Positions 6,445-18,184 of a stretch of 64,000 nt of DNA are shown piece by piece (within the stretch, counting starts at the first letter, position 1; every line of letters begins with the position of its first letter). This DNA is from Halovivax cerinus (lineage in GTDB: Archaea; Halobacteriota; Halobacteria; Halobacteriales; Natrialbaceae). A model generated the notes under the pieces. The model did no database searches. It worked only from the letters and a program-made list of their open reading frames with translations, and was not told the origin of the DNA. The position numbers and the translations under genes are program-made. The stretch covers positions 3,472,001 to 3,536,000 of the forward strand of contig NZ_CP101824.1 of the NCBI RefSeq assembly GCF_024498195.1, in the 5' to 3' direction.

Positions 6445-7812
6445 CTAGAGTCCCTCGCCGCGCCAGGGGATCGGCTCCGCGTCCCGGTCGTCGTCGTATC
6501 GGTGACACGAGACCGGTCGACCTCGGTGCGTCGACCGTTCGGGAACCGCCCGTTCACAGATCGTCGGCAGGGCCGTCGCGAGCTCCTGCGTGGCCGCGTC
6601 GACGTCACCCGATGCGAGCGAATCGACCGCCGATTGGACGTGACGATCCAGGTCCGGATCGTCGAGTTCCGCGGGCAGATCGAAGGCCGCTCTGACGGCC
6701 GACGCGCCGACGTCGGTCCCGGTCGTCGGGTCGACGGCCGACGGCAATTCGCCGGTTTCGACGGTAAATCGAAACGCCGCCAGCCGTCGCCAGGTCTCGC
6801 CGGAGACGGTCAGGTCCGGCGGCGGAATGAGTTCCGGACAGCGAGTGTGGAACCGACAGCCCGACGGCGGATCACTCGGATCCGGGATCGAGTCGGTGAG
6901 GGGACTCTCGAACGTCCGATCGGTCGGGTCGAGACTCGGAACCGAGTTCATCAACACCCGCGTGTACGGATGGGCTGGCGAGTCGAGCACGTCGTCGATC
7001 GCCCCCTGTTCGACGATCTCACCCAGGTACATGACGGCGACCCGATCGCAGAAGAGCCGAACGACGTCGAGGTCGTGACTGATGAAGAGGATCGAGATGT
7101 CGTGTTCGCGGCGAATGTCCTCCAGCAACGCGAGGACGTCGGACTGAACGCGCGCGTCGAGGGCGCTCGTCGGTTCGTCGGCGACGATGAGATCCGGGTT
7201 ACAGACGAGCGCTCGTGCGATCGAGATGCGCTGTTTCTCGCCGCCGGAGAACTCGTGTGGATAGCGATCGGCGTCGTCCGCGGACAAGCCGACGCGTTCG
7301 AGGACGTCCGCGACGATGGCGCGACGGCGCGATTCGTCCGACATGCCGTGGAGTGAGAGCGGTTCGGCGACGGCCTCGCCAACCGTCAGACGCGGGTTGA
7401 ACGCCTCGTTCGGGTCCTGGACCACGAGCTGCGCTCTCCGTCTGAACGACCGAAGGTCGGCCCCCGTGAGGTCGGTAACCGACTCGCCGTCGAAGACGAC
7501 CTCGCCGGCCGTGGGCTCTTCGAGGCGGAGGATCGAGTGGGCGGCCGTCGTCTTTCCGCTCCCCGATTCTCCGACGAGTCCGAGGACTTCGCCGCGACCG
7601 ATCTCGAAGTCGATACCGTCGACGGCGCGGACCCGACCGACCTCGCGGCGGAGGAACCCGCGCGTGATCGGATAGTGTGTCTCCAGCCCGCGGACACGGA
7701 GGAGCGGCTCCGAATCTGTCCAGACCGGCGACCCCTCGGCATAGTCTGCCGAGGTGTGATCACCGTCTTCGGACGGTCTCTCGCGCGGTGGGTCGGCGTT
7801 CGCGTCGCTCAT
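6445..7812 (-). CDS. Oligopeptide/dipeptide-type ABC transporter ATP-binding protein (DppF/OppF-like, left set)
   Basis: 455 residues. Walker A GESGSGKT is at 81-88, the Q-loop follows (VVQDPNEAFNPRLTVG), the ABC signature is FSGGEKQR, Walker B is LIVADEPTSALD and the H-loop is FISHD. The C-terminal oligopeptide-transporter extension includes the Cys motif GCRFHTRCPELIP. A further ~100 residues of acidic C-terminal extension are also seen in the second DppF-like protein here (16850-18184). It powers import of peptides or related solutes. It overlaps the next gene by 4 bp (ATGA type), so the three minus-strand genes 10088-6445 form one operon. Confidence 0.92.
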   Translation of the reverse strand: MSDANADPPRERPSEDGDHTSADYAEGSPVWTDSEPLLRVRGLETHYPITRGFLRREVGRVRAVDGIDFEIGRGEVLGLVGESGSGKTTAAHSILRLEEPTAGEVVFDGESVTDLTGADLRSFRRRAQLVVQDPNEAFNPRLTVGEAVAEPLSLHGMSDESRRRAIVADVLERVGLSADDADRYPHEFSGGEKQRISIARALVCNPDLIVADEPTSALDARVQSDVLALLEDIRREHDISILFISHDLDVVRLFCDRVAVMYLGEIVEQGAIDDVLDSPAHPYTRVLMNSVPSLDPTDRTFESPLTDSIPDPSDPPSGCRFHTRCPELIPPPDLTVSGETWRRLAAFRFTVETGELPSAVDPTTGTDVGASAVRAAFDLPAELDDPDLDRHVQSAVDSLASGDVDAATQELATALPTICERAVPERSTHRGRPVSCHRYDDDRDAEPIPWRGEGL

Positions 7813-8870
7813 CGCGACACCTCCGAGACGGAGTGAACTTCGTTCGCGGTATCGAGGACCTGCGTCGGATCGCCGTCGGGCCCGTAGTGGACGCAGGAGA
7901 CCGTGTGGTCGGGATCGCCGTCGATCCCGAAGAAGTCGGGCTGATCGCCACCCTCACACGTGGGCTCGGCGTACGGACACTCTCCGCGGAAGCGACACCC
8001 GTCCCGCGGGATATCGCCACGGGCCGATCGGTCGTCGCGTCTCGAGAGCCCGTCGTAGCTGTCGAAGAGTGCCTGTGTGTACGGGTGTGCCGGGGTCGAG
8101 AAGAGCGAGCTCACCGGGCCCCGTTCGACGATGGTGCCGCCGTACATGACGAGCACGCGATCTGCGAGCGATGCGACGACCCGGAGATCGTGTGTGATAA
8201 GCAGTATGGCCGTGTCGTCGTCCGTGAGTTCACGGAGGAGTTCGATCAACTTCGCCTGAACCGTGACGTCGACTGCAGTGGTCGGTTCGTCGGCGATGAG
8301 CAGGTCCGGGTCGGCCGCGAGCGCGATGGCGATAGCCACGCGTTGGCGCATCCCGCCGGAGAACTCGTGGGGGTACTCGTCGATCCGGTCGTCGGCTCGC
8401 GGGATGCCGACCTTCCGGAGGAGGGAGATCGCCCGTTCCCTGGCGGCTGCGCCCGACGCCTGTCCGTGAATCGTTATCGCCTCGACGATCTGATCGCCGA
8501 CGGTGTAGACCGGGTCGAGGGCCTGTTGTGGGTTCTGGAAGATGTGGGCGATCTTGTCGCCGCGAATCGATCTGAGGTCGCGTTCGCTCGCGCCGTCGAT
8601 CCGCTCACCGTCGAACGTGATCCGGCCGTCGACGACGTCTGCGGGCGGCTGGGGAACGATCCCGGTCAGCGATTCGCAGGTGACGCTCTTCCCACTTCCG
8701 GACTCGCCGACGATACAGACCGTTTCGCCGGGGTGGACGTCGAAGGTGACGCCGTCTACGGCCCGGATCAGTTCGCGATCCGTTTCGATGTGGGTTCGAA
8801 GTCCGTCGACCGAGAGGAGCGGCTCCGTGGACCGGGTCGATACCGTCGTGGAATCTGCGTTCGATGACAT
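7809..8870 (-). CDS. Oligopeptide/dipeptide-type ABC transporter ATP-binding protein (DppD/OppD-like, left set)
   Basis: 353 residues. Walker A GESGSGKS is at 55-62, signature FSGGMRQR, Walker B LLIADEPTTAVD and H-loop LITHD. The C-terminal region has the Cys-rich GCRFRGECPYAEPTCEGG motif and a later VSCVHYG cysteine, as in DppD-type subunits where these cysteines may bind an iron-sulfur cluster (known for some homologues, not shown here). It pairs with the ATPase at 6445-7812 and is encoded 3 bp after the permease ending at 8874. Confidence 0.92.
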   Translation of the reverse strand: MSSNADSTTVSTRSTEPLLSVDGLRTHIETDRELIRAVDGVTFDVHPGETVCIVGESGSGKSVTCESLTGIVPQPPADVVDGRITFDGERIDGASERDLRSIRGDKIAHIFQNPQQALDPVYTVGDQIVEAITIHGQASGAAARERAISLLRKVGIPRADDRIDEYPHEFSGGMRQRVAIAIALAADPDLLIADEPTTAVDVTVQAKLIELLRELTDDDTAILLITHDLRVVASLADRVLVMYGGTIVERGPVSSLFSTPAHPYTQALFDSYDGLSRRDDRSARGDIPRDGCRFRGECPYAEPTCEGGDQPDFFGIDGDPDHTVSCVHYGPDGDPTQVLDTANEVHSVSEVSR

Positions 8871-8873
8871 TGG

Positions 8874-10088
8874 TCAGTTCGTTTGTCGGGGGTCGAGGGC
8901 GTCTCGGACAGCGTCGCCGGTGATCTTGAGCGACGCCAGCGTGGCGGTCAGTGCGATCATGGGGAACGTCGAAATCCACCAGATGTCCGACGTCGTGGTC
9001 GGTGGGCGGACGAAGTCCTGTCCGGTGCTGACGGAGAGTGCCGTTCCCTCCTGGATTATCGATCCCCACGAGTACGTCTGAATGTGGTGGAACCCGAGGA
9101 ACGCGATGCCCGCCTCCACCAGAACGAACAGGGCGAGGAGGTGAAACACCGACGGAACGAGCGTGTTCGTGATGTTCGGAATGATGTGACGACGGCCGAT
9201 GTACGGGGCGGACGCGCCGAGACTTCGAGCGACGAGTACGTATCCATCCTCACGCCGCTGAAGCGTCTCACTGCGGACGATCCTGGCGATACCACCCCAG
9301 CTCAACAGTCCGAACGTGACGAGCAGGAGGAGCAACGACGTGTTCCAGTACATGTATCCCATGATGAACGCGACGATCGCCGGAATGCACAACTGGACGT
9401 CGACGTAACTCATCAGGAGGTCGTCGATCCGGCCACCGCGGAAGCCGGCGACGATGCCGACCACCGCAGCGACCGGAACGATGAACGCGAGCGTAAACAC
9501 GATCACTTCCACCGCGACGGCCGCACCCTCCGTGATCAGGTAATCGATCGAGTGACCGCGGTGGTTCGTCCCGAGCGGATACGCCATCGACCCCTGACAG
9601 TACCGTGTGAAGCCATCGGCCGCGACCGTCACCTCACCAGCACACTGGTTCGCCCACCCCATCTTACTCTTTCCCCAGAAGGGCGGGTTGTACTGATTCG
9701 CGAACGTGACGCTCGGGCTCCCGTAGATAGCAGGGCCGACGAACCCCAGAAGGACGACGAGCGAGAGGAGACCGCCCCCCACGGCGTGGACCGGTTTCGA
9801 ACAGATCCGTCTGAGGCGACGAACCGTTTGATCCCGGTGGCGAAGCATCGGGACGCCGAACAGGGACGCGATCACCACGACACCCCCGTAGACGATCCAG
9901 TCGAGTGTATCGATCTCCCACCGACCGACGAAAAATACGCCGGTGTACGAATCGTAGACGTACAGTGCGAAAACGACGGCGATGCCAACAGTAAACGTGA
10001 GCCGTTCCGGTGTGAGCAGCGTCCGCGAGTGCTCCACCTCGCTCCAGTCGACCGCTTCGAAGTTCGATCGGGCGTCGTCCGTACTCAT
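8874..10088 (-). CDS. ABC transporter permease (DppC-like, left set)
   Basis: 404 residues, longer than a usual DppC (~300). The N-terminus has two extra hydrophobic segments (about 31-47 and 60-78) before the typical first helix (VVLLGFVGPAIYG). A long external loop with two cysteines precedes the GTNHRGHSI segment common to DppC proteins. The core BPD_transp_1 region has the EAA-type loop (SLGASAPYIGRRHIIPN). It forms the channel with the divergently transcribed permease at 10465-11406. A TATA-like element lies just upstream (see 10112-10126). Confidence 0.9.
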   Translation of the reverse strand: MSTDDARSNFEAVDWSEVEHSRTLLTPERLTFTVGIAVVFALYVYDSYTGVFFVGRWEIDTLDWIVYGGVVVIASLFGVPMLRHRDQTVRRLRRICSKPVHAVGGGLLSLVVLLGFVGPAIYGSPSVTFANQYNPPFWGKSKMGWANQCAGEVTVAADGFTRYCQGSMAYPLGTNHRGHSIDYLITEGAAVAVEVIVFTLAFIVPVAAVVGIVAGFRGGRIDDLLMSYVDVQLCIPAIVAFIMGYMYWNTSLLLLLVTFGLLSWGGIARIVRSETLQRREDGYVLVARSLGASAPYIGRRHIIPNITNTLVPSVFHLLALFVLVEAGIAFLGFHHIQTYSWGSIIQEGTALSVSTGQDFVRPPTTTSDIWWISTFPMIALTATLASLKITGDAVRDALDPRQTN

Positions 10089-10111
10089 GAAGGGCGAGTG
10101 TGATTCACTGG

Positions 10112-10126
10112 CAACCGCATATAAAG
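10112..10126 (-). promoter_or_regulatory. Predicted core promoter of the left ABC operon
   Basis: On the minus strand the sequence reads CTTTATATGCGG, a good haloarchaeal TATA box, about 32 nt before the ATG at 10088. Initiation would fall only a few nucleotides before the start codon. It faces away from the + strand permease at 10465, so the 376-bp gap 10089-10464 is a divergent regulatory region. A second AT-rich stretch (aactttttta, ~10244-10253) also lies in this gap. I see no gene in it. Confidence 0.55.
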
Positions 10127-10464
10127 GTGTCTGATCACTTACGCGATTCTGGCAACAGTATAGTAATTACCGTTTGTGGCCCCACGAAGCATCGTAGATG
10201 GATGGTAGGCCGTGACAGGCACCGCCCGACGTGTCTGCTTTCGATAACTTTTTTACGTGGTAACAGACACCAATCAACGATGCCCTCCTCGATCGAAGCC
10301 AGGACACGGGCAGCACGCCTGCCAGCAGGTATCGCCAACCGAGGCAGACTCGCCACACGCAGAGCGCACGCGAACCGAATCAGCCGACCGCGCCTGCCTG
10401 CAGACGAACGAGACCAACGCACCCGTACAACGGGTCGTGAAGGGACGACTGTAGACTGGAACCC

Positions 10465-11406
10465 ATGAGCCTCGTTCGCCTGTTCGCGAAACGTATCGTG
10501 CTGGGATTCGTGGCCGCCTGGACGGTTCTGACGACCGTCTTCGCCGCGTTCAATTTGACAGACGACTGGGTACTCGCCGGTATAGAGGGACAGATGCGGT
10601 GGGGCGGCGCGAGCAAAGAGGAGATACGAGAACGAACGAACGCGTACATGGCCAGGCGAGGCCTCGACGATCCACTCTTCGAACGGTACGTCGACTGGAT
10701 GGGGAGAATGCTCACCTTCGACTGGGGACAGTCGATCCAGAGCGGAGAACCGGCGCTCGCGATCGTCCGGGAGGGGCTCTGGCGAACTGCGGCGTACGTC
10801 GTACCGGGACTCGCTCTCGCCATCGTGATCGGCATCGGTGTCGGGCTGTACGCGGCGCTGCGCCCGAACAGCAAACTCGCGGGCCTGAGCGTCACGACCG
10901 CCTACCTCGGATTCGCAGTGCCGAACTTCTGGCTCGCGGCCATGCTCTACTCCCTCGACGGACAGCTGTTCGAGGCACCGCCTGTCGTCTTCGACTCGAT
11001 CCTCCCGATCGTTCTGACGACGTCGACGTTACTCGGTGGGTACGTGAGTTATGCACGTGCGCACTCACGCGAGTACGCGTCCGCGGAGTTCGTCAAACTC
11101 GTCCGGACCAAGGGTGCCGGTCCGATCACGATAGCCCGCCACATCGTCCGAAACGCGGCGATCCCGTTCGTCTCGATGGTCTTCGTCGAAGCGCTGGCGC
11201 TCCTCGTACTCACGGTATTCGTCATCGAGATCGTGTTCGGTATCCAGGGCTTCGGGTACACGTTCTTCACCGCGATCGAAGGGCGCGACTTGCCGATCGT
11301 CCTCGGGAGTACGCTCGTGATCGTCGCCGTCGGGATCGTCGGTAACATCCTCCAGGACATCGGATACACCGCGCTCGATCCGCGTGTCGACACCGGAACG
11401 CGGTAG
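10465..11406 (+). CDS. ABC transporter permease (DppB-like, left set, divergent)
   Basis: 313 residues with six predicted membrane helices and the DppB-type C-terminus. The conserved cytoplasmic loop SAEFVKLVRTKGAGPITIARHIVRNA matches the EAA motif (SEYVRTARAKG...). The N-terminal segment FDWGQSIQSGEPALAIV is the usual periplasmic DppB motif. It is the natural partner of the DppC-like permease transcribed away from it at 8874-10088. Splitting a DppB/DppC pair across divergent promoters is unusual because these genes normally overlap in one operon. Confidence 0.9.
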   Translation: MSLVRLFAKRIVLGFVAAWTVLTTVFAAFNLTDDWVLAGIEGQMRWGGASKEEIRERTNAYMARRGLDDPLFERYVDWMGRMLTFDWGQSIQSGEPALAIVREGLWRTAAYVVPGLALAIVIGIGVGLYAALRPNSKLAGLSVTTAYLGFAVPNFWLAAMLYSLDGQLFEAPPVVFDSILPIVLTTSTLLGGYVSYARAHSREYASAEFVKLVRTKGAGPITIARHIVRNAAIPFVSMVFVEALALLVLTVFVIEIVFGIQGFGYTFFTAIEGRDLPIVLGSTLVIVAVGIVGNILQDIGYTALDPRVDTGTR

Positions 11407-11738
11407 CCCGTCCGGTCTGTCTCCCGTCGACGGACGAACCGATAGCGGGGGATCGTTCGGGGACAGGGGCTGTCGAACGAGAGATAGACCTCGACCGATC
11501 TCGAGTGAGAGTTATTTATCCAATGTTCTGTATTTTGAAATTTTCATGGAGACAATTATACACCACTGGGCAAACGACGCCAGCGTAACAAACTGATGTA
11601 ATTCCGGACGTTTGTTCTCAATACGCCCGTGTAAATGACCAATCAAAAATAATATAGGGGCCAGAAGCGTGCCGTATGCAAACCCGCTTCACTCAGAAAC
11701 AATACTTATATATGGGGTAAGAACACTGTTGTCACGCA
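11407..11738. other. AT-rich intergenic region upstream of the substrate-binding protein
   Basis: About 330 bp with no credible gene. It is markedly AT-rich from ~11510 (gttatttatcc, tgtattttgaaattttc, caaaaataatatagg). This probably includes the end of the permease transcript and the control region of the large ABC operon. The promoter nearest the operon is listed separately. Confidence 0.6.
11702..11715 (+). promoter_or_regulatory. Predicted core promoter of the substrate-binding-protein operon
   Basis: The sequence tacttatatatggg is a strong TATA box centred about 29 nt before the ATG at 11739, the spacing expected for a leaderless haloarchaeal transcript. It would drive the five-gene operon 11739-18184. 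Confidence 0.65.
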
Positions 11739-13703
11739 ATGGTGCTAGACCAGGCAAAATCAGCGACGGACGTTGACCGACGAACGGTACTGAAGACCGT
11801 CGGTGCAGGTGGTGCGATCACGCTCGCCGGCTGTCTCGACGATGGCGACGGATCGGACGACGCCGACTTCCCGATGGACATCACGCTCGAAGTGAACGCG
11901 GACAACGACGACCGCGTCCAGATGGTCGAACTCATCGCGGCCTCCCTGGAAGAGTCGGGATACTTCAACACGACCATCGAGACGTTCGAGTGGACGACCT
12001 ACGTGAGCCGCGTCATGGGCTCCGACTACCCGACCATGGGCGTCGTTCCCTGCATCGGACTGGCCGGGACCTTCAACCCAGGCAGTTTCTGTAACGCACT
12101 CCACCACACGGACAACGTCGGACAGTGCTGTAACCTGACCGGTGTCGGCAACGAGGAACTGGACGGGATGATCGAGTCCGCCCGGTATGGCGTCGAGGTC
12201 TCCCAGGACAACGAGCTTCGTGGCGAGCGCTACGACGAGGTCTGGAACGCGCTCGCCGACTACAAGTACAGTTCGATCACCCACTTCGACGTCCAGAACG
12301 TCATCACGACGACGGACGTCCACAACTTCGTCTCGTACCCGTTCCAGCAGACCCTGATGAGCCACGCGCTCTACGAACCGGCAGACGAGCAGGTCGCGTG
12401 GATCGACCGCGAGAACGCGGCGAGTACGGACGGCGAGACGTCGCTGTCGGAGATCAGCGAAGGCGGCGAACTGAGCATCGGGCTCGGCGCCAACCCGTCG
12501 TCGTTCGACCCGCCGTACAGTACGGACACGACGTCGAGCATCGGACAGAATTACATCTTCGAGTACCTGACGACGTCGGACTCGCAGGGGAACGTCTACC
12601 CGTGGCTCGCGGAGGACTACACCATCGAAGACGTCCAGGACATCGACGTGACGGCGTACGAGCCGTACATGACCGAAGTGTCGACCACCGAGGATGGGGC
12701 CCCTGATACGGACGCGCAGATCATCGTCCAGCACCCGGAGGACGATCCCTCGAGTCAGGACTCGGTCCGCATCCTCACGCCCACGGAAGCCGCCGACGCC
12801 GTCGCCGACGGTACCTACGGTATGCACTTCCGGTACGCGCTGGAGCAGGGCGTCACGTTCCACAACGGCGAGGAGATGACCGCCGAGGACGTCGTCGCCT
12901 CGCTCAAGCGCGTCGAAAACTCGCAGATCTCCGCCCAGACGTTCGACTCCGTCCTCCACGCGGAGGCGGTCGACGACTACACCGTCGACTTCTACGCGCA
13001 AATTCCGGACGCGGAAGCGGAGCGCCTGCTCACGGGTACCACGGCCGTCATGCCCAAGGAGGTCGCCGAGTCGGAGGCCAGTGCGGTCGACCCGCGTCAG
13101 AGCGTCGATCCGGTCGGCACCGGTCCGTACGAGTTCGGCGAGATCGACGACGGGAACTACTTCACCGTCGAGCGGTTCGACGACTACTGGATGCACGACA
13201 AGGGCATCCAGAACAAGGACTGGTTCGACGGCCCCTCGGAATTCCCGAACGGACCCGTCGTCGATACGGTCTACAACGAAATTATCTCGGACGCCAGTAC
13301 CCGACAGGGTGCCCTCCAGAACGCGGAGCTCGACGTCACGTTCGGACTCAACGCGTCGGCCCTGGACAGCTTCGTCGAGAGCGACGACTTCATCGTGGAC
13401 AGTGTCGCCGCCGGTGGCTACGAGTACGTCCAGTACCCGATCGCCGTCGAACCGTTCGACGACGACCGGGTCCGCAAGGCGATCAACTACCTCGTCCCAC
13501 GACAGCGGATCGTCGACAACATCCTGAACGGCTGGGGATCGCCGGCCTGGACCAGTATCCCCGAACTCGCGCGCGGTGCTGGCACGGCCGACTACGGCGC
13601 GCTCGAATCCGAAGTCAAGCCGACGAACGAGTTCAAACCGGACGAGGCGGCGTCACTCCTCGAGGAGTTCATCGAGGACAGTGACTTCACGTCGAACGTC
13701 TAG
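11739..13703 (+). CDS. ABC transporter substrate-binding lipoprotein (SBP family 5), apparently circularly permuted
   Basis: 654 residues. It has a twin-arginine signal (DRRTVLKTVG) and a lipobox with Cys32 (TLAGC), so it is a Tat-exported lipoprotein. Residues ~46-214 match the C-terminal lobe end of family-5 peptide-binding proteins (MDITLEVNADNDDRVQ onward, TFNPGSFCNALHH, ending SHALYEP). Then comes an acidic linker (~215-243), and residues ~244-654 match the N-terminal lobe and hinge (ELSIGLGANPSSFDPPYS; FHNGEEMTAEDVVASLKRVE; DPVGTGPYEF). The protein stops at FKPDEAASLLEEFIEDSDF, exactly where the C-terminal segment normally begins. The order is thus C-part then N-part. All in one open frame. 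Likely ligand: peptides, opines or similar; not determinable. Confidence 0.9.
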   Translation: MVLDQAKSATDVDRRTVLKTVGAGGAITLAGCLDDGDGSDDADFPMDITLEVNADNDDRVQMVELIAASLEESGYFNTTIETFEWTTYVSRVMGSDYPTMGVVPCIGLAGTFNPGSFCNALHHTDNVGQCCNLTGVGNEELDGMIESARYGVEVSQDNELRGERYDEVWNALADYKYSSITHFDVQNVITTTDVHNFVSYPFQQTLMSHALYEPADEQVAWIDRENAASTDGETSLSEISEGGELSIGLGANPSSFDPPYSTDTTSSIGQNYIFEYLTTSDSQGNVYPWLAEDYTIEDVQDIDVTAYEPYMTEVSTTEDGAPDTDAQIIVQHPEDDPSSQDSVRILTPTEAADAVADGTYGMHFRYALEQGVTFHNGEEMTAEDVVASLKRVENSQISAQTFDSVLHAEAVDDYTVDFYAQIPDAEAERLLTGTTAVMPKEVAESEASAVDPRQSVDPVGTGPYEFGEIDDGNYFTVERFDDYWMHDKGIQNKDWFDGPSEFPNGPVVDTVYNEIISDASTRQGALQNAELDVTFGLNASALDSFVESDDFIVDSVAAGGYEYVQYPIAVEPFDDDRVRKAINYLVPRQRIVDNILNGWGSPAWTSIPELARGAGTADYGALESEVKPTNEFKPDEAASLLEEFIEDSDFTSNV

Positions 13704-13769: not shown

Positions 13770-14726
13770 ATGAGCCTCAGACGGTTTATCGTAAAGAGAC
13801 TACTGGCGATCATTCCAATCCTCTTCGGGGTGTCGATAATCACGTTCGGCCTGGTCCACCTGACCCCGGGCGACCCGGTCCAACAGATTCTCGCCCTCAA
13901 CCCGGACGCCGGTCCGGCAGAGAAGGCACAGTTACGGCGAGAGTTCGGATTCGACGTTCCGATCTGGGAACAGTACCTGAACTGGATGACCGGGGTGCTC
14001 ACCGGTGACTTCGGCGACGTGTACCGCTCCGGGCGTGACGTCGGAGACGTCATCTACGCACGGCTGCCCGAAACGCTCCTGCTCGGACTCTTCGGCTGGG
14101 TGTTCGGCCTCGTCATCGCGATCCCGACCGGGATCTACGCGGCCGTCAACAAGGACCAGTTCGGCGACACGGTAAGTCGATTCGTCGCCCTGTCGGGCAT
14201 CTCCATTCCGAACTTCTGGCTGGGGCTGATGCTCATCCTCATCGGGTCGCTCACGCTCGGCCTGTGGCCGGTCACGGCACCCAAGCGAGACCCGCTCCTC
14301 TCTACGGGGATGCTGTGGTACCTGGTGCTCCCGGGCCTGACGATCGGAACCGCGTCCGCGTCGTCCATCATGCGGGTGATGCGGACGTCCATGGCCGAGG
14401 AGATGAACAAGGAGTACGTGACCGCCGCGAGGGCGAAGGGACTCCCCGAGCGAACGGTCGTCCTCAAACACGTGCTACGGAACTCGCTCATCTCCGTCGT
14501 CACGCTGGCAGCGTCGCTGACCGCTGCCATCGTGGCAGGCTCCGTCGTCGTCGAACAGGTGTTCGCCTGGCCGGGACTCGGGAACGAGTTCATCCAGGCC
14601 ATCCGGAACGCCGAATACAACCTCATCATGGCGATCACCCTCTTTACGGGGGTGTTCATCATCCTCGCGAATCTGGTAGCGGACATACTGTACGCGGCTC
14701 TCGACCCGAGGATCCGATATGACTGA
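13770..14726 (+). CDS. ABC transporter permease (DppB-like, right set)
   Basis: 318 residues. It starts with the classic DppB N-terminus (LRRFIVKRLLAIIPILFGVS, LVHLTPGDPVQQIL), followed by GDFGDVYRSGRDV and the loop KEYVTAARAKGLPERTVVLKHVLRN. The end (LYAALDPRIRYD) is typical. Six membrane helices are predicted. It lies 66 bp after the binding-protein gene and overlaps the next permease by 8 bp, so it is co-transcribed. It forms the translocation channel with the DppC-like protein. Confidence 0.93.
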   Translation: MSLRRFIVKRLLAIIPILFGVSIITFGLVHLTPGDPVQQILALNPDAGPAEKAQLRREFGFDVPIWEQYLNWMTGVLTGDFGDVYRSGRDVGDVIYARLPETLLLGLFGWVFGLVIAIPTGIYAAVNKDQFGDTVSRFVALSGISIPNFWLGLMLILIGSLTLGLWPVTAPKRDPLLSTGMLWYLVLPGLTIGTASASSIMRVMRTSMAEEMNKEYVTAARAKGLPERTVVLKHVLRNSLISVVTLAASLTAAIVAGSVVVEQVFAWPGLGNEFIQAIRNAEYNLIMAITLFTGVFIILANLVADILYAALDPRIRYD

Positions 14727-15774
14727 TAAGAACGTATTAGCCGGACGTGGCCGCATCGAAATTTCCGGGTTCGACCCGAAACGAGTGGAACAGCGAGAGA
14801 GCCTCTCTGGCTGGACGGAGGAGGCTGGCCGAGCCACGCAAAGTCGCTGGGCCCGGGCGTGGCAGCGGTTCAAACGAAACCGGAGTGCCCTGCTCGGCCT
14901 GGCCGTCGTGGGATTCCTGACCTTCCTCGCCATCTTCGCCCGACCGATCGAGGTCTTCGGGCTCACCGTTCAGCCGATCGCACTCGCACCACACCCGCCA
15001 GGCGAACTGCTCTACTTCGCACACCCGGGGGAGGGATTCACCGGCGACTACCAGCCGCCGAGTATGAAGGCACCGATGGGGCTCGACGGCGACGGACGCG
15101 ATATCTTCTCGCGTCTGCTCTACGGCGGCCGGTACAGCCTCTCGATCGGATTTATCGTCGTCGCCCTGACAGCCGGTGTCGGGCTGATCTACGGCGCCGT
15201 CTCGGGCTACTACGGCGGCTGGGTCGACGAGATCATGATGCGCATCGTCGACATTATCTACGCCTTCCCGGGGCTCGTGCTGGCGCTCATCATCGTCTCC
15301 ATGCTCGGCCGGGGTTACACGCAACTCATCATCGCGTTCTCTCTGTTCGGCTGGGCGGGATACGGACGACTGGTGCGCGGCGAGGTGCTGAAGGTCAAAG
15401 AACACGAGTACGTGATGGCGGCAAAGGCACTCGGTGCGCGCGACAGGGGCGTCGTCTTAAGACACATCGCGCCCAACACGATGGCACCACTGCTGGTGGT
15501 CGCTTCCCTCCGGATCGGGACCGTCGTGATCGGCGTCGCGGCGCTCGGGTTCCTCGGACTCGGCATGCCCCCGGGAAGTGCGGAGTGGGGGACGATGCTC
15601 AACGGCGCCCGTAGTTCACTGATCCAGCTCGATACCTCACCCAAGTGGTGGGCGACCGTCTTCCCGGGAACGGCCATCTTCCTGTTCGTCATGTCGATGA
15701 ACATGATCGGTGACGGGATCAACGACGCGCTCGACGCCCAGCAGACCGGCGTCGGCAAGGGAGGTGAGGAATAA
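14719..15774 (+). CDS. ABC transporter permease (DppC-like, right set)
   Basis: 351 residues. It has a ~50-residue hydrophilic N-terminus, a first helix (LLGLAVVGFLTFLAIFA), a long external loop with PMGLDGDGRDIFSRLLYG (the usual GTDxxGRD motif), and five further helices. The cytoplasmic loop is HEYVMAAKALGARDRGVVLR. It overlaps the upstream permease by 8 bp and its stop shares a base with the start of the DppD-like gene. Confidence 0.93.
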   Translation: MTDKNVLAGRGRIEISGFDPKRVEQRESLSGWTEEAGRATQSRWARAWQRFKRNRSALLGLAVVGFLTFLAIFARPIEVFGLTVQPIALAPHPPGELLYFAHPGEGFTGDYQPPSMKAPMGLDGDGRDIFSRLLYGGRYSLSIGFIVVALTAGVGLIYGAVSGYYGGWVDEIMMRIVDIIYAFPGLVLALIIVSMLGRGYTQLIIAFSLFGWAGYGRLVRGEVLKVKEHEYVMAAKALGARDRGVVLRHIAPNTMAPLLVVASLRIGTVVIGVAALGFLGLGMPPGSAEWGTMLNGARSSLIQLDTSPKWWATVFPGTAIFLFVMSMNMIGDGINDALDAQQTGVGKGGEE

Positions 15775-16853
15775 TGGCGCTGCTCGAAGTCGAGGACCTG
15801 ACCGTCAACTTCTACACGCAGGACGGTACCGTCAACGCCGTCGACAACCTGTCCTACACCATCGAACGCGGGGAGAAGTTCGGCGTAGTGGGCGAGAGCG
15901 GGGCGGGAAAGAGCGTCACCGCTCTCTCGCTCATGCGCCTCATCGAACGTCCGGGTCACATCGAGAGCGGCGAGATCCGCTTCAAGGGCCAGGACATCCT
16001 GTCGATGTCCGAAGACGAGGTGCGCTCTATCCGGGGCAACGAGATTGCGATGATCTTTCAGGACGCCCAGACGGCTCTGAACCCGGTCTACACCGTCGGC
16101 GAACAGATCGCCGAAGCCATGCGACACCACCTCGGCTACGGCAAGTCAGAGGCCAAAGAGGAGACGATCGACCTCCTCGCGAAAGTCGGAATCCCGGAGG
16201 CCAGAAAGCGCTACAGTGACTACCCACACGAGTTCTCCGGCGGCATGCAACAGCGCGCGATCATCGCCATGGCGCTCTCGTGTGGCCCCGACCTGCTCAT
16301 CTGTGACGAACCGACCACCGCGCTCGACGTGACGATCGAAGCGAAGATCTTAGAAGAGATCGAGTCACTCGCCGAAGAGTTCGACACGGCGATCCAGCTC
16401 ATCACGCACGACCTCGGCGTCATCGCAGAGGTCTGTGACCGGGTCATGGTCATGTACGGCGGGAAACCAGTCGAGAAGGCACCCGTCGAGGACCTGTTCT
16501 ACGACCCCAAACACCCCTACACGGTCGGCCTGATGAGTTCCATCCCGCGGATCGGCGAATCCGCGGACCGCCTCCAGACGATCCCGGGCACCATGCCAGA
16601 CCTGGTCGAACTGCCACCGGGCTGTAGCTTCCACCCGCGCTGTCCCTTCGCGGAGGAAGCCTGCACGTTACGCGAACCCGACTTACTCGACACAGCGTCG
16701 GGCAAACCCGCGTCAGACGTAGAGACGGACCACGCAGCCGCCTGCCTGGCGTACTCCGGTGACCTGACCGGCGAACTCGACTACACGGTGCGTGTCGACG
16801 AAGATCCGAAATCGAACGCGCCTACCAGTCAAATCACGGGTGACAACCAATGA
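15774..16853 (+). CDS. ABC transporter ATP-binding protein (DppD-like, right set)
   Basis: 359 residues. Walker A GESGAGKS 40-47, Q-loop IFQDAQTALNPVYTVG, signature FSGGMQQR, Walker B LLICDEPTTALD, H-loop LITHD. The C-terminal oligo_HPY region has the Cys pattern GCSFHPRCPFAEEAC plus a later AACLAY cysteine. It energises the permease pair encoded immediately upstream. It overlaps the DppF-like gene by 4 bp (ATGA). Confidence 0.93.
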   Translation: MALLEVEDLTVNFYTQDGTVNAVDNLSYTIERGEKFGVVGESGAGKSVTALSLMRLIERPGHIESGEIRFKGQDILSMSEDEVRSIRGNEIAMIFQDAQTALNPVYTVGEQIAEAMRHHLGYGKSEAKEETIDLLAKVGIPEARKRYSDYPHEFSGGMQQRAIIAMALSCGPDLLICDEPTTALDVTIEAKILEEIESLAEEFDTAIQLITHDLGVIAEVCDRVMVMYGGKPVEKAPVEDLFYDPKHPYTVGLMSSIPRIGESADRLQTIPGTMPDLVELPPGCSFHPRCPFAEEACTLREPDLLDTASGKPASDVETDHAAACLAYSGDLTGELDYTVRVDEDPKSNAPTSQITGDNQ

Positions 16854-18184
16854 GTGACACCACCGGCGAGCCCATCCTCGAAGCCCGCGGGCTCAAGAAG
16901 TACTACGACACGGCGAGCGGCTTCATGGACAGTATGCTCGGTCGATCGAGCAAGGTCAAAGCTGTCGACGACGTCGACATAGAACTCTACGAGGGAGAAA
17001 CGCTCGGCGTCGTCGGCGAGAGCGGCTGTGGAAAGACGACACTCGGCCGAACGATGCTGCGGCTCATCGAACCGACCGACGGCTCGGTGTACTACAAGGG
17101 CCAGGATTTGACCGAGCTGTCCTCGAGCGACCTCCGCGACGTGCGGACTGACATCCAGTACATCTTCCAGGACCCGTTCTCGAGCCTGAACCCACGGATG
17201 ACGGTCGGCGACATCATCGGCGAACCGCTCGACATCCACGGCATCGCCGAGGGGCAAGAGCGCGACGAGCGGATCTACGAGCTCCTCGAAACCGTCGGCC
17301 TGAACGCGAGTCACAGTCACCGGTATCCACACGAGTTCTCCGGGGGACAGCGCCAACGTATCGGCATCGCCCGGGCGCTCGCTGTCGATCCGGAGGTGAT
17401 CATCTGCGACGAGCCGGTAAGCGCGCTCGACGTCAGCGTCCAGGCGCAGATCTTGAACCTTCTCGAAGACCTACAGGAGGAGTTCGGCCTCTCGTACATC
17501 TTCATCGCCCACGACCTGAGCGTCGTCGAACACATCTCGGACCGCATCGCTGTGATGTACCTCGGCGAGATTGCCGAGACAGGCACGACCGACGAGGTGT
17601 TCGAACCGCCCTACCACCCGTACGCGGAAGCCCTGCTGTCTGCGATCCCGGAACCGGATCCGCTGTGGGACGGCGAACAGATATACCTCTCCGGGACGGT
17701 TCCCTCGCCGATCGATCCGCCGTCGGGCTGTCGGTTCCACACCCGCTGTCCACGGGTGATCCAGCCCGAGGAGTACGACATGCCACAGGAGGAGTGGCGA
17801 CACCTGATGGACTTCAAACAGCGATTGCACGCGAGCGACGACCTCGAATCCGTCACGGAGACCGTGGATGCGGACGACCAGGTCGACCTCAATACGGTCG
17901 CCCGGGACACGCTCGACGAACTGATCAGACGGGAGTTCGATCTGCCGATGCAACTGTCGGATCTACAAGCAGAACAGATCTTCTCACAAGCCATCGACCG
18001 ACTGGCCGAAGAGAACTTCGACGATGCACGGGCACTGGTCGCGAACGGCTATCAATCGCCGTGCGAACAACGGAATCCCGAACTGCTGTCCACCGGCACC
18101 ACGCACAAGATCTCCTGTCACCTGTACGACGACGATATCACCCCCGCCACCTCGACGACCGGGGACGCGGTCGCAGACGACTGA
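16850..18184 (+). CDS. ABC transporter ATP-binding protein (DppF-like, right set)
   Basis: 444 residues. Walker A GESGCGKT 56-63, IFQDPFSSLNPRMTVG, signature FSGGQRQR, Walker B VIICDEPVSALD, H-loop FIAHD. The C-terminus includes GCRFHTRCPRVIQ and then about 110 extra acidic residues with two late cysteines (SPCEQRN, KISCHLYDDD). The left-set DppF-like protein has the same layout, which suggests that the two cassettes are related by duplication. Last gene of the operon. Confidence 0.93.
   Translation: MSDTTGEPILEARGLKKYYDTASGFMDSMLGRSSKVKAVDDVDIELYEGETLGVVGESGCGKTTLGRTMLRLIEPTDGSVYYKGQDLTELSSSDLRDVRTDIQYIFQDPFSSLNPRMTVGDIIGEPLDIHGIAEGQERDERIYELLETVGLNASHSHRYPHEFSGGQRQRIGIARALAVDPEVIICDEPVSALDVSVQAQILNLLEDLQEEFGLSYIFIAHDLSVVEHISDRIAVMYLGEIAETGTTDEVFEPPYHPYAEALLSAIPEPDPLWDGEQIYLSGTVPSPIDPPSGCRFHTRCPRVIQPEEYDMPQEEWRHLMDFKQRLHASDDLESVTETVDADDQVDLNTVARDTLDELIRREFDLPMQLSDLQAEQIFSQAIDRLAEENFDDARALVANGYQSPCEQRNPELLSTGTTHKISCHLYDDDITPATSTTGDAVADD

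Follow-up and report, generated by a model that had tools for sequence, protein, structure and literature searches.

Natural circular permutations usually come to light in comparisons of distant homologues, in which the intermediate steps have been lost. The canonical substrate-binding proteins (SBPs) of family 5, or cluster C, include Escherichia coli DppA (1dpp), Bacillus subtilis AppA (1xoc) and NikA (1zlq). The closest described permuted SBP is TpMglB-2 (Tp0684) of Treponema pallidum and its relatives, a naturally permuted, membrane-anchored SBP of an ABC importer that was designated 'Type Ic/Cluster Bc' (PMC4990184). TpMglB-2 binds sugars and belongs to type I/cluster B. Its permutation displaced N-lobe strands only, along with a poorly conserved segment possibly derived from another gene, and Brautigam et al. 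suggested a link between the permutation and membrane tethering (PMC4990184). TpMglB-2 was the only natural permuted SBP found in the open-access literature; the same search found no report of circular permutation in family 5/cluster C, including OppA, or of an orthologous binding protein occurring in both orders within one operon.

The window analyzed here is a stretch of 64,000 nucleotides from a 3.9 Mb single-contig haloarchaeal genome. It encodes a 654-residue protein that shares with the canonical cluster C SBPs both segments of the fold and the dppBCDF-type partners. Profile and structure comparisons, done in pieces, point to the same fold, but it begins and ends at approximately residue 360 of the canonical protein and not at the canonical termini. 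With TpMglB-2 the protein has in common a natural permutation, a predicted membrane anchor and its place as the SBP of an ABC importer, while it differs in its membership of cluster C and in that closely related orthologues of canonical order head the same operon. A Pfam scan to E = 1 returned SBP_bac_5 and no cluster B sugar-binding family. Natural permutation and one permuted family of cluster B SBPs are already known; what appears to be new, judged by the open-access literature, is its occurrence in family 5/cluster C and the repeated switching between the two orders.

Gene organization and operon context

The gene is located on the forward strand at positions 11739–13703 as a single intact open reading frame (ORF), running from the ATG at 11739 to the stop at 13703. 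The ORF, the Pfam matches, the orthologue comparison and an AlphaFold model together identify the product as a circularly permuted family-5 substrate-binding lipoprotein. A possible archaeal TATA element on the same strand (cttatatat, 11705–11713) is centred approximately 30 nt 5′ of the ATG, a spacing that would fit a leaderless transcript. Positions 11739–11834 encode a predicted twin-arginine signal peptide (DRRTVLK) followed by a lipobox that ends at Cys32 (TLAGC), the leader reading ..RRTVLKTVGAGGAITLAGC. The TAT_signal profile gave an E value of 0.067, below its cut-off; residues R14, R15, G31 and C32 are invariant across 39 permuted proteins, and the twin arginines with the lipobox cysteine mark the protein as a putative Tat-exported archaeal lipoprotein. 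This agrees with the single frame, signal peptide and intact lipobox described in the initial annotation.

A short acidic spacer (11835–11867), with pLDDT values below 50 up to residue 40, connects the lipobox cysteine to the new N-terminus of the fold. It is followed by the C-terminal third of the SBP fold, corresponding to residues ~360–505 of DppA/AppA and now placed in front (residues ~44–224, 11868–12410), by a linker that bridges the canonical C-terminus and the mature N-terminus of the canonical protein (residues ~225–241, 12411–12461) and by the N-terminal two thirds of the fold, AppA ~17–359 (residues ~242–654, 12462–13700). In the Halorubrum-type permuted proteins (L081–L090) the spacer that separates the lipobox cysteine from the fold is an extended Gly/Asp repeat (GGDGGDGG), and its length differs among close species. 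An invariant stretch with vicinal cysteines, NxGQCCNL, lies within residues 118–132 (nt 12090–12134) near a conserved ALHH motif; the region is present in the permuted and in most canonical proteins of the group, and the cysteine stretch may represent a site of metal binding or of a disulphide. The Asp of the 'GDNGDPDNF' stretch of DppA is absent from 'GTFNP'.

The SBP gene is genetically linked to a dppB/C/D/F-type importer (13770–18184), all on the forward strand: a dppB/oppB-type permease in the same operon (13770–14726; PF00528, PF19300), a dppC/oppC-type permease (14719–15774; PF00528, PF12911), a dppD-type ATPase (15774–16853; PF00005, PF08352) and a dppF-type ATPase (16850–18184; PF00005, PF08352). 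The same neighbours were present at nearly all permuted and canonical loci read, the exceptions being a few loci without ATPase genes or interrupted by contig ends. A second Dpp-type importer occupies positions 6445–11406 of the window, where dppF, dppD and dppC on the reverse strand diverge from dppB on the forward strand, and no binding protein of its own was seen near it. The second importer also adjoins the permuted operon (e.g., L056–L061, L067, L070, L074) or the canonical operon (L039, L040) in other genomes. As no dedicated binding protein was seen near it and it adjoins the SBP operon in several other genomes, it may share one receptor with the DppBCDF operon.

Rotation of the segment order

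The protein was matched by PF00496 (SBP_bac_5) in two pieces that are swapped relative to the profile, with profile positions 286–341 at approximately 11856–12035 (weak, E of 9e-4) ahead of positions 16–276 at approximately 12819–13670 (E of 5e-49). The 654-residue protein scored 184.7 bits against a gathering threshold of 32.4, which places it in the family. The C-segment by itself scored 19.5 bits, under the family cut-off, and illustrates how order-dependent profiles under-report permuted proteins. Comparison with AppA (1xoc) using phmmer aligned query residues 230–293 and 353–608 with chain residues 9–72 and 71–311, and query residues 30–182 with chain residues 342–487, the last match being weak taken alone. 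A profile built from 22 permuted C-segments (window residues 44–223) matched solved family-5 proteins in their last third only (1xoc 361–508, 1dpp 360–500, 3m8u 353–500), a weak sequence match with a best E value of 1.6e-5. On the E. coli DppA precursor, hhalign placed this profile at residues 386–526 and the N-segment at residues 88–366.

The ranges of the two segments abut at approximately residue 360 of AppA, and at that resolution each is present once, with none duplicated or missing. Because the C-segment precedes the N-segment, the protein departs from the canonical order of SBP_bac_5 and is a permuted variant and not a canonical member of the family. The boundaries given in the initial annotation (46–214 and 244–654) were correct to approximately 10 residues and have been refined to ~44–224 and ~242–654. 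The best matches among ligand-type profiles were to nickel- and oligopeptide-type proteins, all far below their cut-offs, and none of the NCBIfam equivalog cut-offs was reached.

Canonical orthologues were identified that contain the same two segments in normal order within one ORF heading the same operon. Their identity to the N- and C-segments of the window protein is 59 and 58% for L100 and 57 and 60% for L102. Relative to L100, L102 and L039, every segment of the window protein occurs once and the order is rotated. A listing of the junctions showed the old termini joined and the new termini at a point where the homologues are continuous. The canonical sequence '..EYDPERAEELLEEVVDDLGLDTPIEIQLEVNADN' corresponds to the split point: the permuted proteins end there, for example with '..EEVIEDRGYESSV' and a stop, or '..EEFIEDSDFTSNV' and a stop in the window protein, and begin there with, for example, 'SFPLDVQLEV', or 'DFPMDITLEV' in the window protein. 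The proposal that FKPDEAASLLEEFIEDSDF at the C-terminus would run into FPMDITLEVNADN after the signal peptide was matched by the canonical orthologues, where the two are contiguous, as in 'YDPERAEELLEEVVDDLGLDTPIEIQLEVNADN' of L039. At the second joint the canonical C-terminus (..DEQVxWIDR; e.g., '..EEQVIYLERDE' and a stop) is fused through approximately 15–17 residues to 'EGGTLRxG', which is the canonical mature N-terminus.

These canonical orthologues, and not the match to solved structures, are the strongest evidence for the identity of the C-segment. An unrelated domain at residues 46–214 was ruled out because this region is 58–60% identical to the C-terminal third in the nearest canonical orthologues. 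No normal C-lobe was found elsewhere in the protein, as the ORF ends with the N-segment. The circular permutation of a family-5 SBP first proposed in the initial annotation is confirmed by the swapped Pfam match, the segment profiles and the canonical orthologues in the same operon.

Structural model and proposed mechanism

The AlphaFold model, calculated with 39 permuted proteins, had a pLDDT of 83.7 and a pTM of 0.82, with low pLDDT confined to the leader (1–40) and a short loop (125–133). The model fits a protein that folds as one compact unit. It was compared with canonical SBPs in two pieces, the front part of the canonical fold by structure and the C-part by profile only. VIA-align superposed model residues 238–654 on residues 17–359 of 1xoc with a Z score of 22.5 and an rmsd of 4.9 for 325 aligned residues; as the alignment follows sequence order, the model alone does not establish a DppA-like arrangement of the lobes. 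Very probably the window encodes a genuine, functional, naturally circularly permuted SBP of the DppA/OppA/NikA type (family 5, cluster C), for which export, lipidation and ligand binding are presumed.

The polypeptide chain would start near residue 360 of the canonical protein, run to the old C-terminus, pass through the linker of approximately 17 residues to the old N-terminus and end near residue 360. Because the old termini of family-5 SBPs are near each other, no change of the fold is expected. The new termini fall within a loop on the surface of the second lobe, which would shift the membrane tether from the first lobe to the second. By analogy with the family, the protein would be exported by the Tat route, anchored to lipid at Cys32, close on its solute like a Venus flytrap and hand it to the DppBCDF importer. 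The receptor would then be that of an otherwise ordinary Venus-flytrap importer, with its lipid anchor now on the other lobe. The permuted gene is likely to have originated by in-frame tandem duplication followed by loss of both outer ends; no tandem-duplicate intermediates were present among the loci read.

Conservation and distribution

The whole permuted protein was found in 24 genomes of the family to which the window belongs, the window included, and in 17 genomes of two other families (f5, f4). The search for orthologues of the same order suggested in the initial annotation thus recovered 40 other haloarchaeal genomes, among them Halovivax asiaticus, Natronorubrum, Natronococcus, Halobiforma, Halostagnicola and Halorubrum. 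The permuted genes were re-read as single ORFs at the head of an SBP-dppB-dppC-dppD-dppF operon. No full-length permuted match was detected outside the haloarchaea in the sampled phylum-level genomes. The nearest named relative is the H. asiaticus protein (83% identity). Comparison of these two gave a dN/dS of 0.16, with values of 0.12–0.27 for four other pairs, and the dN of the C-segment (0.093) and N-segment (0.092) was alike. Both lobes are under purifying selection. The linker is fast-evolving (dN 0.56, dS 0.47, from 14 codons only).

The main alternative named in the initial annotation was an error of assembly or annotation concealing a gene of normal order, since mis-assembled tandem repeats can yield a permuted read-out. 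This explanation is extremely improbable, and assembly error is excluded because the 40 other genomes carry the same order in one frame: the orthologues come from independent projects and assemblies of 41 species in all, some of them complete chromosomes, with 49–83% identity to the window protein, and selection has been maintained on both lobes.

Among the sampled Halovivax genomes, two have the permuted gene (the window and L056), two have a distant canonical-order homologue that heads the same kind of operon (L043, L045) and one has neither. Three genomes of the Halostagnicola group (L036, L037, L038) carry both a permuted and a canonical-order operon, approximately 10 kb apart on opposite strands.

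A second permutant

A different permutant was encoded by L080 (G138:C138), a metagenome-assembled genome (MAG) of another family, as a 634-residue ORF at the same operon-head position. Its order is N(108–411)-C-N(4–87), with the opening ~85 residues of the N-lobe now placed last. It shares the operon head and the segments with the window protein but is cut in another loop, near residue 320 of the window protein, and has almost no linker. Its own signal peptide, lipobox and a Thr/Pro spacer precede the fold. The model of L080 had a pLDDT of 82.6 and a pTM of 0.81, and residues 88–554 were superposed on residues 57–507 of 1dpp with a Z score of 24.7 and an rmsd of 3.5 for 417 aligned residues. 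This type was found in one MAG only, and the other sampled genome of its family had no close relative of it.

Number of order changes

The phylogeny was calculated from 49 rows in which, solely for this purpose, the N- and C-parts were joined in the canonical order. A first tree of 44 rows had given two clades and a single clean origin, which was rejected by wider sampling and AU tests. Monophyly of the permuted proteins was rejected with AU p values of 2.7e-5 for the gene and 8e-6 for dppB+C+D. The gene tree required at least three order changes, and a single change sufficed in 0% of 200 bootstrap trees. The permuted L086 (Natronocalculus) and the canonical L100 (halophilic archaeon SHRA6) pair as sisters with 100/99 support in the gene tree. 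Separate trees of the N- and C-parts recover the pair with SH-aLRT values of 94 and 91, and the dppBCD tree does so with a support of 99. As the orthologues do not separate into a permuted and a canonical clade, the order has changed at least three times among them, a conclusion that is well supported.

Three histories could account for this pattern. We tentatively favor, at slightly under an even chance, a single ancestral permutation after which the canonical order returned at least twice, in L100 and in the f14-type clade. The careful tree then needs three changes (one gain, two losses), where gains alone need seven, or 4–8 over 1000 bootstraps, and a reversible model gave a lnL of −14.4 vs. 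−19.2 for a gain-only model. The pairing of L086 with L100 in all four trees is consistent with reversion, as is the resemblance of the linkers across permuted groups, although these linkers are short and acidic. The canonical N-terminal motif of the f14-type proteins (DREEVDFADLQEGG) argues the other way in being like that of outgroup canonical proteins (DRETVDPDEIKSGG), as if they had never been permuted; in addition, the backbone branches are short and the dppBCD tree needs six changes.

Alternatively, the permutation may have arisen several times independently, each time at almost the same loop, a possible but rather doubtful history. The rejected monophyly of gene and operon genes is what such a history would give, the new C-termini vary by group (DHDLE, DRGYESSV, VAAEN) and the clearly separate permutation of L080 indicates that the family tolerates permutation. 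This history requires approximately 4–8 gains at a worse likelihood, and would have to produce cut points and linker lengths that are nearly identical in all groups.

Haloarchaea recombine freely, and the trees could also mislead if a single permutation had been followed by gene conversion or segment transfer between permuted and canonical operons, such as those that lie ~10 kb apart in the three Halostagnicola-group genomes. This is unlikely: the canonical copy that neighbours the permuted one there is only distantly related (~38%), and the N-part, C-part and operon genes concur on the sisterhood of L086 and L100, so that several transfers would be needed.

Returning to the favored history, segment order may be evolutionarily reversible, with an ancestral permutation, restoration of canonical order in at least two lineages and a different permutant made independently in another; taken as a whole this scenario is plausible, and somewhat less than an even prospect.

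Significance

To the initial annotation the analysis added that the permuted gene is widely conserved, that the segment order has changed three times or more and that a permutant of a second type exists. Because permuted and canonical orthologues are 50–60% identical, head the same operon and occur in cultivable haloarchaea, the path of the permutation and its reversibility are directly testable, and so are its effects on folding, ligand binding and membrane tethering. The gene family is a natural experiment in protein rewiring and not a sequencing mistake.
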